In this document: piece after piece, positions 14,046-19,182 of the stretch | Layout: every line of letters begins with the position of its first letter | How positions within the stretch are numbered: the stretch's first letter is position 1 | Source of the DNA: Quadrisphaera sp. DSM 44207 | GTDB taxonomy: Bacteria; Actinomycetota; Actinomycetes; Actinomycetales; Quadrisphaeraceae | DNA: 64,000 bases | Assembly (NCBI RefSeq): GCF_900101335.1 | Contig: NZ_FNKA01000003.1 | Location: 124,001-188,000 of the forward strand | Direction of reading: 5' to 3' | Translations under genes and position numbers: made by a program | The notes under the pieces: generated by a model | Seen by the model: the letters and a program-made list of their open reading frames with translations, nothing else | What the model was told of the DNA's origin: nothing | Databases searched by the model: none

Positions 14046-15608
14046 GTGGACCGTCGCGAAGGCCCCGCCGGGCGGGACGAAGCTGGTGCGGGGCCGGTGG
14101 TGATCGGCGTCGACATCGGCACGACGAGCACGAAGGCGGTGGCCTTCGACGCGGCGGGGCGGCTGCTCGCCGCGCACTCGGCCGGGTACCCGCTGGAGGA
14201 GCCGCACCCGGGCCACGCCGTCCAGGACCCGCAGCTGGTGCTGCGGGCCGTGCTGGACGCCGTCCGCGCCGCCGTCGCCGAGGTGGGGGCGGCGCGGGTG
14301 GCCGGGCTGTCGTTCAGCGCGGCCATGCACGCCCTGGTCGGGCTCTCCCCGACGGGCGAGCCGCTGACGCCGCTCGTCACGTGGGCCGACACCCGCGCCG
14401 GCCGGCAGGCCGAGCGGCTGCGCGCGAGCACGGGCGGCCTGGCGCTGCACCGGCGCACCGGCACCCCGCTGCACCCGATGTCGCCCCTGGCCAAGCTCGT
14501 GTGGTTCTCCGAGCAGGAGCCGAAGCTGTGCGAGCGGGTGGGGTTCTGGGTCGGGATCAAGGAGCTCGTGCTCTGGCGCCTGTGCGGCGCGCTCGTGGTG
14601 GACCACTCGGTGGCCTCGGCGACCGGCCTGATGGACCTGGAGGCGCTGGCCTGGGACGGCGAGGCCCTCGCCCTGGCCGGGGTGCTGGCCGACCAGCTGC
14701 CCGAGCTGGTGCCCACGACGCACGTCCTGCCGGGCCTGACGCCCGAGGGCGCCGCCGCGACCGGGCTGCCGCAGCGCACTCCCGTGGTGGTCGGCGCCAG
14801 CGACGGGCCGCTGGCCAACCTCGGCCTCGGGGCCGTGCGCCCGGGCGTGGCGGCGTGCTCGATCGGCACGAGCGGCGCGCTGCGCGTCGTCGTCGACCGG
14901 CCGGCCGTGGACCCCCTGGGCCGGGTGTTCTGCTACGCCCTCACGCCGGGGCGGTGGGTCGTCGGCGGGGCTGTCAACAACGGCGGGGTCGTGCTGCAGT
15001 GGGCCGGCGACGCCCTCGCGCCGGACCTGGGGGAGGGGGCGGAGGAGGAGCTGCTGGCCCTCGCCGCCCGCGCGCCGGCCGGCTCCGGAGGGCTGGTGAT
15101 GCTGCCGTACCTGCTCGGCGAGCGGGCGCCGCACTGGAGCTCGCTGCCCCGCGGCGCCTACGTCGGCCTGACCCGGGCGCACCGGCGCGAGCACCTGGTG
15201 CGGGCGGCGGTCGAGGGGGTGTGCCTGCAGCTGGCGCTGGTGCTGCACTCGATGCGCTCGGCGGGCCTCCAGGTGCGCGAGCTGCGCGCCACGGGCGGCT
15301 TCGCGCGCAGCCCGTGGTGGCGGCAGCTGCTGGCCGACGCCCTGGGGATGGAGGTGCGGTTCGCGCGCGGCCACGAGGGCTCCGGGTTCGGCGCGGCGCT
15401 GCTCGGCATGGAGGCCCTCGGCCTCGTCGGCTCGATCGACGTGGCGGCCGACCTGGTCCGGACGGGCGAGACCGCGCGCCCGCACCCGGCGGACTCGGCC
15501 GTCTACGCCTCGCTGCTGCCGGTGTTCGGCGAGCTGTACGACGCGCTCGCGCCGACCTACGCGTCGCTGCGCCGGCTCGCGCCGTCCCTGCCCGTCGACC
15601 TGCGCTGA
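14046..15608 (+). CDS. gntK: FGGY-family carbohydrate kinase, gluconokinase type
   Basis: ATP-dependent sugar-acid kinase of about 520 residues. The first FGGY lobe starts IGVDIGTTSTKAVAFD and contains GLSFSAAMHAL, VTWADTRA, GTPLHPMSPLAK and DHSVASATGLMD, which match gluconokinases better than xylulokinases. The second lobe carries IGTSGALR and ATGGFARS. It would phosphorylate gluconate to 6-phosphogluconate. The start is uncertain: GTG 14046 (G-rich run just upstream) or GTG 14097 immediately before the first strand. The open frame continues upstream but overlaps the divergent htrA gene and is not credible. A role in pentose use cannot be excluded given the nearby xylan genes. Confidence 0.82.
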   Translation: MDRREGPAGRDEAGAGPVVIGVDIGTTSTKAVAFDAAGRLLAAHSAGYPLEEPHPGHAVQDPQLVLRAVLDAVRAAVAEVGAARVAGLSFSAAMHALVGLSPTGEPLTPLVTWADTRAGRQAERLRASTGGLALHRRTGTPLHPMSPLAKLVWFSEQEPKLCERVGFWVGIKELVLWRLCGALVVDHSVASATGLMDLEALAWDGEALALAGVLADQLPELVPTTHVLPGLTPEGAAATGLPQRTPVVVGASDGPLANLGLGAVRPGVAACSIGTSGALRVVVDRPAVDPLGRVFCYALTPGRWVVGGAVNNGGVVLQWAGDALAPDLGEGAEEELLALAARAPAGSGGLVMLPYLLGERAPHWSSLPRGAYVGLTRAHRREHLVRAAVEGVCLQLALVLHSMRSAGLQVRELRATGGFARSPWWRQLLADALGMEVRFARGHEGSGFGAALLGMEALGLVGSIDVAADLVRTGETARPHPADSAVYASLLPVFGELYDALAPTYASLRRLAPSLPVDLR

Positions 15609-15670
15609 CTCCGCGGGTGCTGCGCCGGCCCGCGGGTGCGCCCGACCGCGCGGGCGAGGATCCTGCGGGC

Positions 15671-16057
15671 ATGGACCTGACCTGCCCGAAGTGCCACGGC
15701 TCGATGCGCAGCTACGAGCGCAACGGCGTCACCGTCGACCAGTGCACCGAGTGCCGCGGCATCTTCCTCGACCGCGGTGAGCTGGAGCGCCTCGTCGACG
15801 CGGAGAACCGCTGGCACGAGCACGAGCCGTCCTCCGCGCAGGGCGCGGCCGGGTACGCGCAGGGGTCCTCGGGGCACGGGGCGTCGGGGCACGGCGGCGC
15901 GGCGGCCGGGGGGCTGGGCGCGGTGGTCGGCGAGGTGCTGCGCCAGGCGGGCACGCGCTCGTCCGGCTCGGGCCACGGCAGCTCCAGCGGGTACGGGCAG
16001 AGCGGGTACGGGCAGTCCAGGCGCAAGAAGTCCTTCCTGGACGAGCTGTTCGGCTGA
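15671..16057 (+). CDS. Zinc-ribbon (zf-TFIIB) small protein
   Basis: Protein of 128 residues. The N-terminal zf-TFIIB ribbon has four metal-ligand cysteines, CPKCHGSM and CTECRGIFLDRGELERL. A Gly/Ser/His-rich linker and the basic C-terminal patch SRRKKSFLDELFG follow. Proteins of this build are common in actinobacteria; their role is unknown, and metal binding is the only property the sequence supports. Confidence 0.85.
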   Translation: MDLTCPKCHGSMRSYERNGVTVDQCTECRGIFLDRGELERLVDAENRWHEHEPSSAQGAAGYAQGSSGHGASGHGGAAAGGLGAVVGEVLRQAGTRSSGSGHGSSSGYGQSGYGQSRRKKSFLDELFG

Positions 16058-16092
16058 CCGCCGGCGGCTGCCCGCTTCTCGCCGTCCCTCAC

Positions 16093-16194
16093 CGCCCGTC
16101 GTCGTCGATCATGGGGGTGCGGCGTCCTGCGGCGGCGTGTCGGCGCGCGCAGGCCCATGGGGACGTGCGCCGGACGCGCTGAGCCCCATGGCGG
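16093..16194. repeat. 102-bp inverted repeat, left arm
   Basis: Left arm of a long inverted repeat whose mate is 17293-17394. 97 of 102 positions pair when the right arm is reverse-complemented, with no gaps. It lies just beyond the 3' end of the nuclease-like gene at 16214. No clear target-site duplication is visible outside the arms. Confidence 0.9.
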
Positions 16195-16213
16195 CGGACG
16201 CTGCCCGGCGTCG

Positions 16214-17170
16214 TCACAGCGCTGCGCGCACCATCGTCGGGATGCGCAGCGGGGACGTCGTGTCGGCCCACGTGCACCGCAGGACGTCGTAGCCGAGCGC
16301 CACCAGGGCGTTGGCGCGCCACCGGTCGCGGTGCACCGCCTCGGGCAGGTCGTGGGGGCCGCGGCCGTCCGCCTCGAGCAGCAGCGGCAGGGCGCCGGGC
16401 CGGGTGCGCCGGCGGAACACCATGTCGGCGCGGGCGACGAGGTGGCCGCGCTCGTCGCGGACCTCCACCTGCAGGTCGTCCGGAGCGAGGTCGTCCTCGA
16501 TGCAGCGCAGCCGTGCGCGGCTCTCCAGGGGCGACTCCGCCCGCGGGTCGGCGAGCGCCCACAGGTCCGCCGCGCGCCGGCAGCCGGGACGTCGCCGCGA
16601 GCCGTCCGCCGCGCGGAGCAGCCCGGCGCGGTCGACCAGCCCCCTGCGCAGCGCGGAGTCGAGGACGGCGAGGGCGTCCGGCCGCTCCAGCCGCGGCACG
16701 AGGTCGGCGAGGGTGCGCACGACGCCCGTGGCCGGGATGCCACCCAGGTCGACGACGTCCCCGGCCCCGAGCAGGAAGGCGTGCGGCTCGAGGAACCGGC
16801 GCCGCGCCTTCTCGGCGCCCCGCTGCACGACCACCTGCACGGCTCCGCGGCGCGGCACGCCGTCCACGCCGTGGAGCACCGCGGCGCTGCCCAGGCCGAT
16901 CACCGCACCCGGCACGGCCATCGACGCCGCTCGCGCCCAGGACCTCGCCAGGTCACGGCCCGCGCGCAGCGGATCGGTGAGGTAGGCGCCCCGCAGGGGG
17001 ACGGTCCACTCGCCCTGCGCGACCAGGGACCTCACCACGTGCGGCGCGACGCCCGCCGCCCGCGCCTGTGCCGCCGTGACGACGGCGTCCTGCTCCGCGG
17101 CCAGCGCGGCGAGGGCGGCCGGGACCTGCGGGGGATGGCTCGGCGGGAGCAGCAGGAGCGGAGCGGGCAC
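16214..17170 (-). CDS. AbiEi/DUF559-type protein with Vsr-like nuclease fold, bracketed by inverted repeats
   Basis: About 318 residues from GTG 17170; an upstream ATG at 17299 would give 361 residues and begin inside the right inverted repeat. The N-terminal part (LAALAAEQDAVVTAAQARAAGV, then WTVPLRGAYLTDP) resembles the winged-helix domain of AbiEi-type antitoxins. The C-terminal part (ESPLESRARLRCIEDD, ARADMVFRR, LLLEADGRG, HRDRWRANALVALGYDVLR) matches the DUF559/very-short-patch-repair endonuclease fold, with candidate acidic residues in RADMVF and LEADG. Such genes are multicopy in actinobacteria and of unknown function. No partner toxin gene is adjacent. The gene sits alone between two arms of a 102-bp inverted repeat, suggesting movement or duplication as a unit. 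Confidence 0.75.
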   Translation of the reverse strand: MPAPLLLLPPSHPPQVPAALAALAAEQDAVVTAAQARAAGVAPHVVRSLVAQGEWTVPLRGAYLTDPLRAGRDLARSWARAASMAVPGAVIGLGSAAVLHGVDGVPRRGAVQVVVQRGAEKARRRFLEPHAFLLGAGDVVDLGGIPATGVVRTLADLVPRLERPDALAVLDSALRRGLVDRAGLLRAADGSRRRPGCRRAADLWALADPRAESPLESRARLRCIEDDLAPDDLQVEVRDERGHLVARADMVFRRRTRPGALPLLLEADGRGPHDLPEAVHRDRWRANALVALGYDVLRCTWADTTSPLRIPTMVRAAL

Positions 17171-17292
17171 GCCGGCAGCCTGGGGCCGCGCGGGCGCCTG
17201 CGGAGGTGCCCGCGCAGCGCCTGTGGACGGCGGGGCTGTACCGGCGCCTGTGGGCGGACGGGGGACGGGCCGCGGCCGACGCTGCGGCTGCA

Positions 17293-17394
17293 CCGCCATG
17301 GGGCTCAGCGCGTCCAGCGCACGTCCCCGTGGGCCTGCGCGCGCCGACACGCCGCCGCAGGGCCCCGCAACCCCATGATCGACGACGACGGGCG
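17293..17394. repeat. 102-bp inverted repeat, right arm
   Basis: Mate of 16093-16194 in opposite orientation, equal length, five mismatches. Its inner edge (ccgccatg) contains the possible upstream start codon (ATG at 17299) of the enclosed gene, so the arm may also carry the promoter. Confidence 0.9.
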
Positions 17395-17450
17395 GCGAGC
17401 GGGCGGGGCCGTGCAGGTGGCAGGAGGGTCCCGCGCGCCGGGGGCAGGGG

Positions 17451-19106
17451 CTAGAGGTCCGCCGAGCCGGCCAGGACGTCGTCCGCGTCGACGATGCGGT
17501 ACGCGTAGCCCTGCTCGGCCAGGAAGCGCTGCCGGTGCGCCGCGAAGTCCTGGTCGAGGGTGTCGCGCGCGACCACGGTGTAGAAGCGGGCGGTGCGGCC
17601 GTCGGACTTCGGGCGCAGCACGCGGCCGAGGCGCTGGGCCTCCTCCTGGCGCGAGCCGAAGGAGCCGGAGACCTGCACCGCCACCGACGCCTCGGGCAGG
17701 TCGATGGAGAAGTTCGCGACCTTCGAGACCACGAGCACCGGCAGCTCGCCCGCGCGGAACGCCGCGAACAGCCGCTGGCGCTCCGCCACCGTCGTCTCAC
17801 CGGTGATCACGGGCGCGTCCAGGCGCGAGCCGAGGTCGGCGAGCTGGTCGAGGTACTGGCCGATGACGAGCACCTGCTGCCCGGCGTGCGCGGCGACGAC
17901 CTGCTCGACGACGCGCGACTTCGACTCCGACGTCGAGCACAGGCGGTAGCGCTCCTCCGGCTCGGCGGTCGCGTACAGCAGCCGCTCGGAGTCCGGCAGC
18001 GTCACGCGCACCTCGACGCAGTCGGCGGGCGCGATCCAGCCCTGCGCCTCGATGTCCTTCCACGGCGCGTCGTAGCGCTTGGGCCCGATCAGGGAGAACA
18101 CCTCGCCCTCGCGCCCGTCCTCGCGCACCAGGGTGGCGGTCAGGCCGAGGCGGCGGCGGGCCTGCAGGTCGGCCGTCATCCGGAAGATCGGGGCGGGCAG
18201 CAGGTGCACCTCGTCGTAGACGATCAGGCCCCAGTCGCGGGCGTCGAACAGCTCCAGGTGCGGGTACGCGCCCTTCCGCTTCGTCGTCACCACCTGGTAG
18301 GTCGCGATGGTGACGGGGCGGACCTCCTTGCGGGAACCGGAGTACTCCCCGATCTCGTCCTCCGTCAGCGACGTGCGGCGCAGCAGCTCCTCGCGCCACT
18401 GCCGCGCGCTGACGGTGTTCGTGACGAGGATCAGCGTCGTCGCCCTCGCCCGCGCCATCGCCCCGGCCCCGACGATCGTCTTGCCCGCACCGCAGGGCAG
18501 GACGACGACCCCGGAGCCGCCGTGCCAGAACCCCTCGACGGCCTCGGCCTGGTACGGGCGCATCGCCCACCCGTCCTCGACCAGGTCGATCGGGTGCGCC
18601 TCGCCGTCCACGTGGCCGGCGAGGTCCTCGGCGGGCCAGCCGAGCTTGAGCAGCACCTGCTTCAGCGTGCCGCGCTCGGAGGGGTGGACGACGACCGCCT
18701 CGGCGCCGAGGCGCGCGCCGACCAGGGGCGCGACCTTCTTCGAGCGCAGCACCTCCTCGAGCACCGGGACGTCGAGGGCGTGCAGCACCAGCCCGTGCGC
18801 CGGGTGCTTGAGCAGCTGCAGGCGCCCGTAGCGGTCCATGGTGTCCGCGACGTCGACGAGCAGCGCGTGCGGCACCGGGTAGCGCGAGTGCTCCAGCAGC
18901 GCGTCGACGACCTGCTCGGCGTCGTGCCCGGCGGCGCGCGCGTTCCACAGGCCCAGCGGGGTGACCCGGTAGGTGTGGACGTGCTCGGGCGCCCGCTCGA
19001 GCTCGGCGAACGGGGCGATCGCCTTGCGCGCCGCGGCCGCCGCGGGGTGGTCGACCTCCAGCAGCAGCGTCTTGTCGCTCTGGACGATCAGCGGGCCGTC
19101 GCTCAC
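17451..19106 (-). CDS. XPB/Rad25-type DNA helicase
   Basis: Superfamily 2 3'-5' helicase of 551 residues. A damage-recognition-like N-terminal region (DGPLIVQSDKTLLLEVDHP) precedes the helicase core: Walker A LPCGAGKTIVGAGAM, DEVH box IVYDEVHLLPAP, motif III GLTATLVREDG, and the C-terminal RecA fold with motif VI EAQRLGRVLRPK. Bacterial XPB homologues act in repair or recombination. The GTG at 19106 was chosen as it begins the conserved N-terminus; the frame extends only 17 codons further. It is the last gene of a minus-strand group with the DUF4190-like and Helicase_C_3 genes. Confidence 0.93.
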   Translation of the reverse strand: MSDGPLIVQSDKTLLLEVDHPAAAAARKAIAPFAELERAPEHVHTYRVTPLGLWNARAAGHDAEQVVDALLEHSRYPVPHALLVDVADTMDRYGRLQLLKHPAHGLVLHALDVPVLEEVLRSKKVAPLVGARLGAEAVVVHPSERGTLKQVLLKLGWPAEDLAGHVDGEAHPIDLVEDGWAMRPYQAEAVEGFWHGGSGVVVLPCGAGKTIVGAGAMARARATTLILVTNTVSARQWREELLRRTSLTEDEIGEYSGSRKEVRPVTIATYQVVTTKRKGAYPHLELFDARDWGLIVYDEVHLLPAPIFRMTADLQARRRLGLTATLVREDGREGEVFSLIGPKRYDAPWKDIEAQGWIAPADCVEVRVTLPDSERLLYATAEPEERYRLCSTSESKSRVVEQVVAAHAGQQVLVIGQYLDQLADLGSRLDAPVITGETTVAERQRLFAAFRAGELPVLVVSKVANFSIDLPEASVAVQVSGSFGSRQEEAQRLGRVLRPKSDGRTARFYTVVARDTLDQDFAAHRQRFLAEQGYAYRIVDADDVLAGSADL

Positions 19107-19182
19107 GGGACTCCTCACGGGTGGGCGCCGGCGGGCAGGAGCCGGCTGCGGGTGCAACGGCGCGCACGGCGCAGGGCTTCCC

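Follow-up and report, generated by a model that had tools for sequence, protein, structure and literature searches.

The window analysed here is a 64,000-nucleotide stretch of the genome of the actinobacterium Quadrisphaera sp. DSM 44207 (contig NZ_FNKA01000003.1, positions 124,001 to 188,000). Within it, a nuclease-like gene, P0001, lies between two long inverted arms, and this cassette is in turn placed between two flanking genes. The features of the locus, in window coordinates, are as follows:

15608 to 16057, plus strand: flanking gene for a zf-TFIIB-type protein (start approximate), outside the cassette
16088 to 16194, plus strand: left arm, a copy of the cognate repeat, made of a palindrome-derived unit (CGTCGATCATGGGGT..GCGGCGTGTCG..CCCCATG) and a trailing half unit
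16214 to 17299, minus strand: P0001, AbiEi_4 winged helix plus Vsr-like PD-(D/E)XK nuclease (MTES_1575/DUF559), 361 codons from the ATG at 17299, stop codon at 16214-16216, likelier start at the GTG at 17170
17220 to 17229, no strand assigned: CCTGTGGACG, a copy of the upstream motif CCTGTGGAYRAC, which precedes 68% of the homologous genes and 8% of control genes
17293 to 17399, minus strand: right arm, the inverted copy of the left arm's repeat
17451 to 19157, minus strand: flanking gene for an XPB-type helicase, outside the cassette

Each arm is 107 nt long, the two are 94% complementary, and 1098 nt lie between them. The first-pass annotation, made from the letters of the window alone, had described inverted arms of 102 bp, and the inner 102 nt indeed differ at only five positions (97/102); it had also placed exactly one gene between them, and P0001, on the minus strand, is the only one there. 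A local alignment of one arm with the other spans 114 columns with a score of 185, whereas 2850 random pairs of 300-bp segments from the same window reach a maximum of 56; the arms are real and far above chance. As single hairpins they fold poorly (z of -0.1 and -1.7), and an Rfam search gave nothing above threshold. Copies without a gene do exist in the 3.2-Mb window genome: one, with 82% identity, is located at C1:100314-100405, its neighbours being a YaaA-like gene and a hydrolase gene, and two further, more divergent palindromic relatives are found at C4:73202-73278, a clean hairpin (z of -4.6), and at C4:57270. The centre GGCGTGTCG is common to the window arms and both C4 palindromes, and the trailing half unit of the arms is also present in the C1 copy. 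Because the arms carry this half unit and fold poorly alone, we read them as a partly decayed, enlarged 1.5-unit version of the cognate palindrome. It had been suggested that a transcript across the cassette would close into a giant stem-loop; this reading is not needed, because in other lineages each flank forms its own hairpin, and the single arms of the window would be decayed ones. As a candidate for a shared feature, the literal pattern TCGATCATGRGGT..ACCYCATGATCGA was searched in 395 genomes of the class and matched in only one other genome, where tblastn with P0001 found no nuclease gene near the copies; therefore, the exact sequence is not what is shared.

The product of P0001 had been read as an AbiEi-like winged helix joined to a Vsr-type nuclease fold, and profile searches agree, with E 1.7e-6 for AbiEi_4 and E 1e-4 for REase_MTES_1575 (below the Pfam cut-off for the latter). 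Pfam gave these two domains only, with no Y1_Tnp domain in P0001; an NCBIfam search gave nothing, PADLOC labels the N-terminal part AbiEi, and the AlphaFold model (pLDDT 39) is too poor to use. Among 39 homologs, AbiEi_4 is matched in 31, MTES_1575 in 23 (best E 2.9e-8), and DUF559 in two, and the family profile reaches the endonuclease-like protein of PDB 3hrl with E 0.005. In the alignment of these homologs, E269, D302, E319, and D321 are invariant, as would be expected of a working PD-(D/E)XK nuclease, the activity of which is predicted here. The nuclease domain family and the catalytic-type residues are shared with the Vsr/DUF559/MTES_1575 endonucleases (PMC3710099, PMC12907096; PDB 3hrl), whereas the known members act in mismatch repair or defence, and no cognate repeats are described for them (PMC3710099, PMC12907096). 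The N-terminal winged helix is of the type found in the AbiE type IV toxin-antitoxin system; in contrast, the C-terminus here is a nuclease domain, and no AbiEii nucleotidyltransferase toxin gene adjoins P0001, whose neighbours are the XPB helicase and zf-TFIIB genes.

A possible start codon had been noted at the edge of one arm. The ATG at 17299 does lie at the inner edge of the right arm, but it is probably not the true start of P0001: the first 43 or so codons from it are of low complexity and include the CCTGTGGAC motif, which is located upstream of the gene in homologs, so that the GTG at 17170 is the likelier start and the arm would lie fully outside the gene. The view that such genes are multicopy was borne out, with four further relatives of P0001 in the window genome. 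The closest of these paralogs (L067:3284-4277; G000 C1:565283-566322), with 56-61% identity, is seemingly frameshifted near residue 288; it has no arms, and the fragment CGACACGCCGCGCCG follows its stop codon. A search of 50,697 phage and 72,556 plasmid records at E 1e-5 found no member of the family, which is therefore a chromosomal resident; a protein-pattern search of genome contigs gave no confirmed match.

Is this arrangement a peculiarity of one genome? Homologs were gathered by protein similarity to P0001 only, with nothing else selected on, which gave 94 loci in 47 actinobacterial genomes, with twelve bacterial families represented. The upstream flank of each gene was compared with its downstream flank, within about 350 bp, a score of at least 40 being taken as a match; the controls were 242 genes, called by a simple codon-position rule, from 20-kb chunks (n = 20) of 20 of the same genomes. 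Matching repeats were present on both sides at 59 of the 94 loci (63%) and at one of the 242 control genes (0.4%), mismatched flank pairs also matched at 0.4%, and the excess has a Fisher p of about 6e-33 at score 50. At the standard threshold, 37% of the homologs have no matched flanks; with 650-bp flanks, 77% match and 23% do not, the control rate of 0.4% being that of the flanks of about 350 bp. About half of the flank repeats are palindromic, with lengths of 50-75 bp, as compared with 1% of control segments (median palindrome scores of 40 and 18, respectively). The remaining ones consist of short motifs, CGTGATCATGCA among them, which are repeated in arrays and mostly run in opposite directions on the two flanks. 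In other words, the architecture is a general one, a nuclease gene bracketed by two copies of a repeat private to it. The first-pass annotation had proposed a search for other nuclease genes with the same arms: the layout recurs, as just described, whereas the arm DNA itself was found in none of 58 relatives, because the arms turn over between genera. Arms present only here and fixed in all relatives were not found, nor are the arms fragments of an unrelated duplicated gene; they belong to the nuclease gene.

The repeats are specific to the nuclease. In 35 pairs of repeat-bearing loci from the same genome, the repeats of the two loci are unrelated in 34 and common in one. The repeats of the TGATC type occur at 13 loci from several bacterial families and are clustered on the nuclease tree, where the type changes only three times against a mean of 12 in shuffles (0/500 as low), near-relatives adding to this clustering. 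Some of the genomes that bear them also contain nuclease genes with other repeats. The type of repeat is therefore tied to the nuclease and not to the host. Unrelated repeats have taken the place of both flank repeats at some conserved sites (L134/L164, with one neighbour matched, and L126 and L127 versus L128).

The nuclease gene can also be turned around in place. When flanks were compared by tblastx, 20 clusters of sites with both neighbours conserved were recognised, and in five of them the gene is flipped. In the pair L180/L182, flank identity is 91-94% and the switch of orientation lies inside the arms, and the pair L126/L127 behaves likewise. Some relatives resemble the window's site without matching it: in G029, G045, and G439, a small gene intervenes next to XPB, and G005 and G010 have only the XPB side in common with it; for this reason, none of the five was scored as a two-sided inversion with respect to the window. 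A proposed look for empty sites was fruitful, as the XPB and zf-TFIIB genes directly adjoin each other in three relatives (G004, G009, and G011). In the window, 51 and 30 bp of intergenic DNA are left outside the arm-gene-arm unit, roughly as much as the empty gap of the relatives contains. A homing endonuclease gene would interrupt its own recognition site, which empty alleles would carry intact; here, no arm-like copy was recognised by eye at the empty sites, and the nuclease gene itself lies between two repeat copies. Judged from these sequences, the difference between empty and filled sites may be a gain or a loss alike.

Could ordinary recombination account for all of this? On such an explanation, the palindromes are common intergenic hairpins, for example terminators, beside which the gene has been inserted, RecA flips the gene and homogenises the copies, and the nuclease takes no part in this. 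Inversion requires no more than inverted arms, the likeness of the arms could also be plain RecA work, the empty XPB/zf-TFIIB sites of relatives have hairpins, and cassettes and solo copies are found mostly in convergent, terminator-rich gaps (the neighbours of the cassettes are convergent in 45 cases and divergent in three, against 69 and 59 for controls). This explanation is nevertheless unlikely, as it leaves unexplained why one protein family shows matched flanks at 63% against 0.4%, why each paralog has private repeats, and why the repeat type tracks the protein tree.

Palindromes without a gene are dispersed in five other genomes as well. Six genomes were searched with concatenated elements as queries, and the copy counts are lower bounds. 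Seven palindrome families in five genomes have at least 5-14 copies each, two of them around the nuclease gene and 3-11 elsewhere, whereas an eighth, that of locus L161 of Isoptericola AK164, consists of its two gene-flanking copies only. In Isoptericola AK164 (G053, NZ_CP119106.1), there are at least 13 copies of one palindrome, and in another genome, G019, there are two palindrome families, each with its own nuclease gene. Of 52 solo copies analysed, a simple gene call places 41 in intergenic DNA and 21 between convergent neighbours, and no homologous nuclease gene lies within 2 kb of any of them. The stems are 21-26 bp long. In alignments of 15 and 12 copies, 97.9% and 97.7% of the pair cells are paired, and changes on both sides of the stem affect eight and six pairs, with 20 double-sided changes in each alignment; this covariation exceeds that of all 500 shuffles, which ignore kinship, and of all slid controls. 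It is noteworthy that one solo copy is orthologously placed in G053 and G019 (L301/L314), yet carries the stem sequence of its own genome in each, which suggests that the palindrome copies of one genome evolve in concert.

Three alternatives to a role of the nuclease have to be weighed, of which recombination has been treated above. Another is that the repeats are operators through which an AbiEi-type winged helix regulates its own gene, while the downstream copies would serve as terminators or insulators. Autorepression is known for the AbiEi antitoxin, and the N-terminal AbiEi_4 domain fits such a role. Copies of the repeats are, however, also present downstream of the gene and alone at distant sites without a gene, and their stems are long. 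Moreover, the short motif CCTGTGGAYRAC / CCTGTGGA is a better operator or promoter candidate than the palindrome repeat: upstream of the homologs L121-L209, it occurs in both orientations, for the most part between about -60 and -90, and it was not found downstream of the nuclease genes, being confined to the upstream side. The motif resembles the DnaA box of actinobacteria (TTGTCCACA), from which it differs at one position. We regard regulation as a distinctly unlikely explanation of the repeats.

The third alternative treats the arms as terminal inverted repeats: the unit would resemble a MITE or a TIRtron, would depend for its movement on a transposase gene located elsewhere, and would have the nuclease as its cargo. 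An empty site from which the whole arm-gene-arm unit is missing, and the existence of gene-less copies, would fit such a non-autonomous transposon, and so would an insert of 1.63 kb in Isoptericola AK164 (L308:1954-3696), which lies between two palindrome copies where the relative L316 has one; it contains small unrelated ORFs and looks like an insertion with palindrome duplication. This possibility is very unlikely in view of the different repeat of each nuclease lineage, the occurrence of one repeat type across bacterial families, in step with the nuclease and not with the host, and the long retention of orthologous sites. No target-site duplication was recognised by eye, and there is no transposase between the arms.

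The closest known counterparts are the REPtrons of the REP/RAYT type and the TIRtrons, in which a single chromosomal gene of low mobility likewise lies between gene-specific palindromic or inverted repeats that also occur as dispersed, mostly extragenic, gene-less copies (PMC3733652, PMC8266576). A palindrome-flanked gene with dispersed copies, the mark of a REPtron, is found here as well, in the window as the arms and their three divergent gene-less relatives. The enzyme of REPtrons is a Y1 HUH tyrosine transposase (PMC3733652, PMC8266576), whereas here it is an AbiEi winged helix with a PD-(D/E)XK (Vsr-like) nuclease. In addition, the palindromes here exceed those of REPtrons in length (50-75 bp), have a low copy number (about 5-14 seen), and are private to each paralog; the gene flips in place; and by inspection the repeats share no GTAG foot like the tag of REPtron palindromes. 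The CGTC-tagged REPs are palindromic repeats reported to lack a dedicated transposase (PMC3733652), but they belong to other lineages, have CGTC as an unpaired tag where here it is part of the stem in some lineages only, and have no reported link to a DUF559 gene. Neither actinobacteria nor DUF559 is mentioned in the account of REPtrons (PMC3733652), and in the open-access literature, which our search covered, we found no paper that joins DUF559 or these nucleases to such repeats; the gene-plus-repeat system is apparently undescribed.

Taken together, the findings are best read as a system that resembles a REPtron but has at its core an unrelated PD-(D/E)XK nuclease, which would act on its own palindromes, the window being one locus of a gene-plus-repeat system widespread in actinobacteria; we give this reading a probability of roughly 0.6. 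Counting against it, some repeats are arrays of short motifs and not hairpins, the copy numbers are low, 37% of the homologs are unmatched, and the window's own arms fold poorly.

Such a system would work as follows. The winged helix and the nuclease would recognise the cognate palindrome, as a duplex or an extruded hairpin, which would then be nicked or cut. Repair, with another copy as the template, would homogenise the palindromes and flip the gene between its arms, and would occasionally seed a copy in a new intergenic gap. Repetitive extragenic palindromes would thus be made and spread without a transposase, with specificity co-evolving by nuclease clade, a proposal whose chances we put a little short of even. 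The first-pass annotation had also envisaged transposition of the gene unit, or a nuclease that recognises and copies its own flanks, and both of these are hypotheses.

If the REPtron-like reading is true, a function could be given to a gene family that is among the commonest unexplained ones in actinobacteria and whose members are often labelled AbiEi antitoxin or DUF559 endonuclease; actinobacteria would possess REP-like elements and a dedicated enzyme of their own, and the REP/RAYT lifestyle would have arisen again from an unrelated nuclease. Because several nuclease-palindrome pairs without common repeats occur per genome, recognition and cross-talk are directly testable, and orthogonal palindrome-specific nucleases could follow.

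Three minor observations concern palindromes at other sites. In an uncultured Prevotellaceae (RUG414), of an unrelated phylum, L239:1307-1358 exactly matches the Isoptericola-type palindrome pattern, with no related nuclease gene in 8 kb, and this match may reflect chance, transfer, or misbinning. In another actinobacterium, G248, there are perfect intergenic palindromes TCGATCATGAGGTTG..CAACCTCATGATCGA (L118, L119, and L120), and a search within 1.5 kb of them found no homologous nuclease gene; their half-site is common to the C4 element of the window genome. Finally, the empty XPB/zf-TFIIB gap (L248 and L249) is a terminator-like hairpin with CGTGATCATGGGCG or a variant of it, and the same motif also builds the repeat arrays of the nuclease loci L192, L198, and L200.
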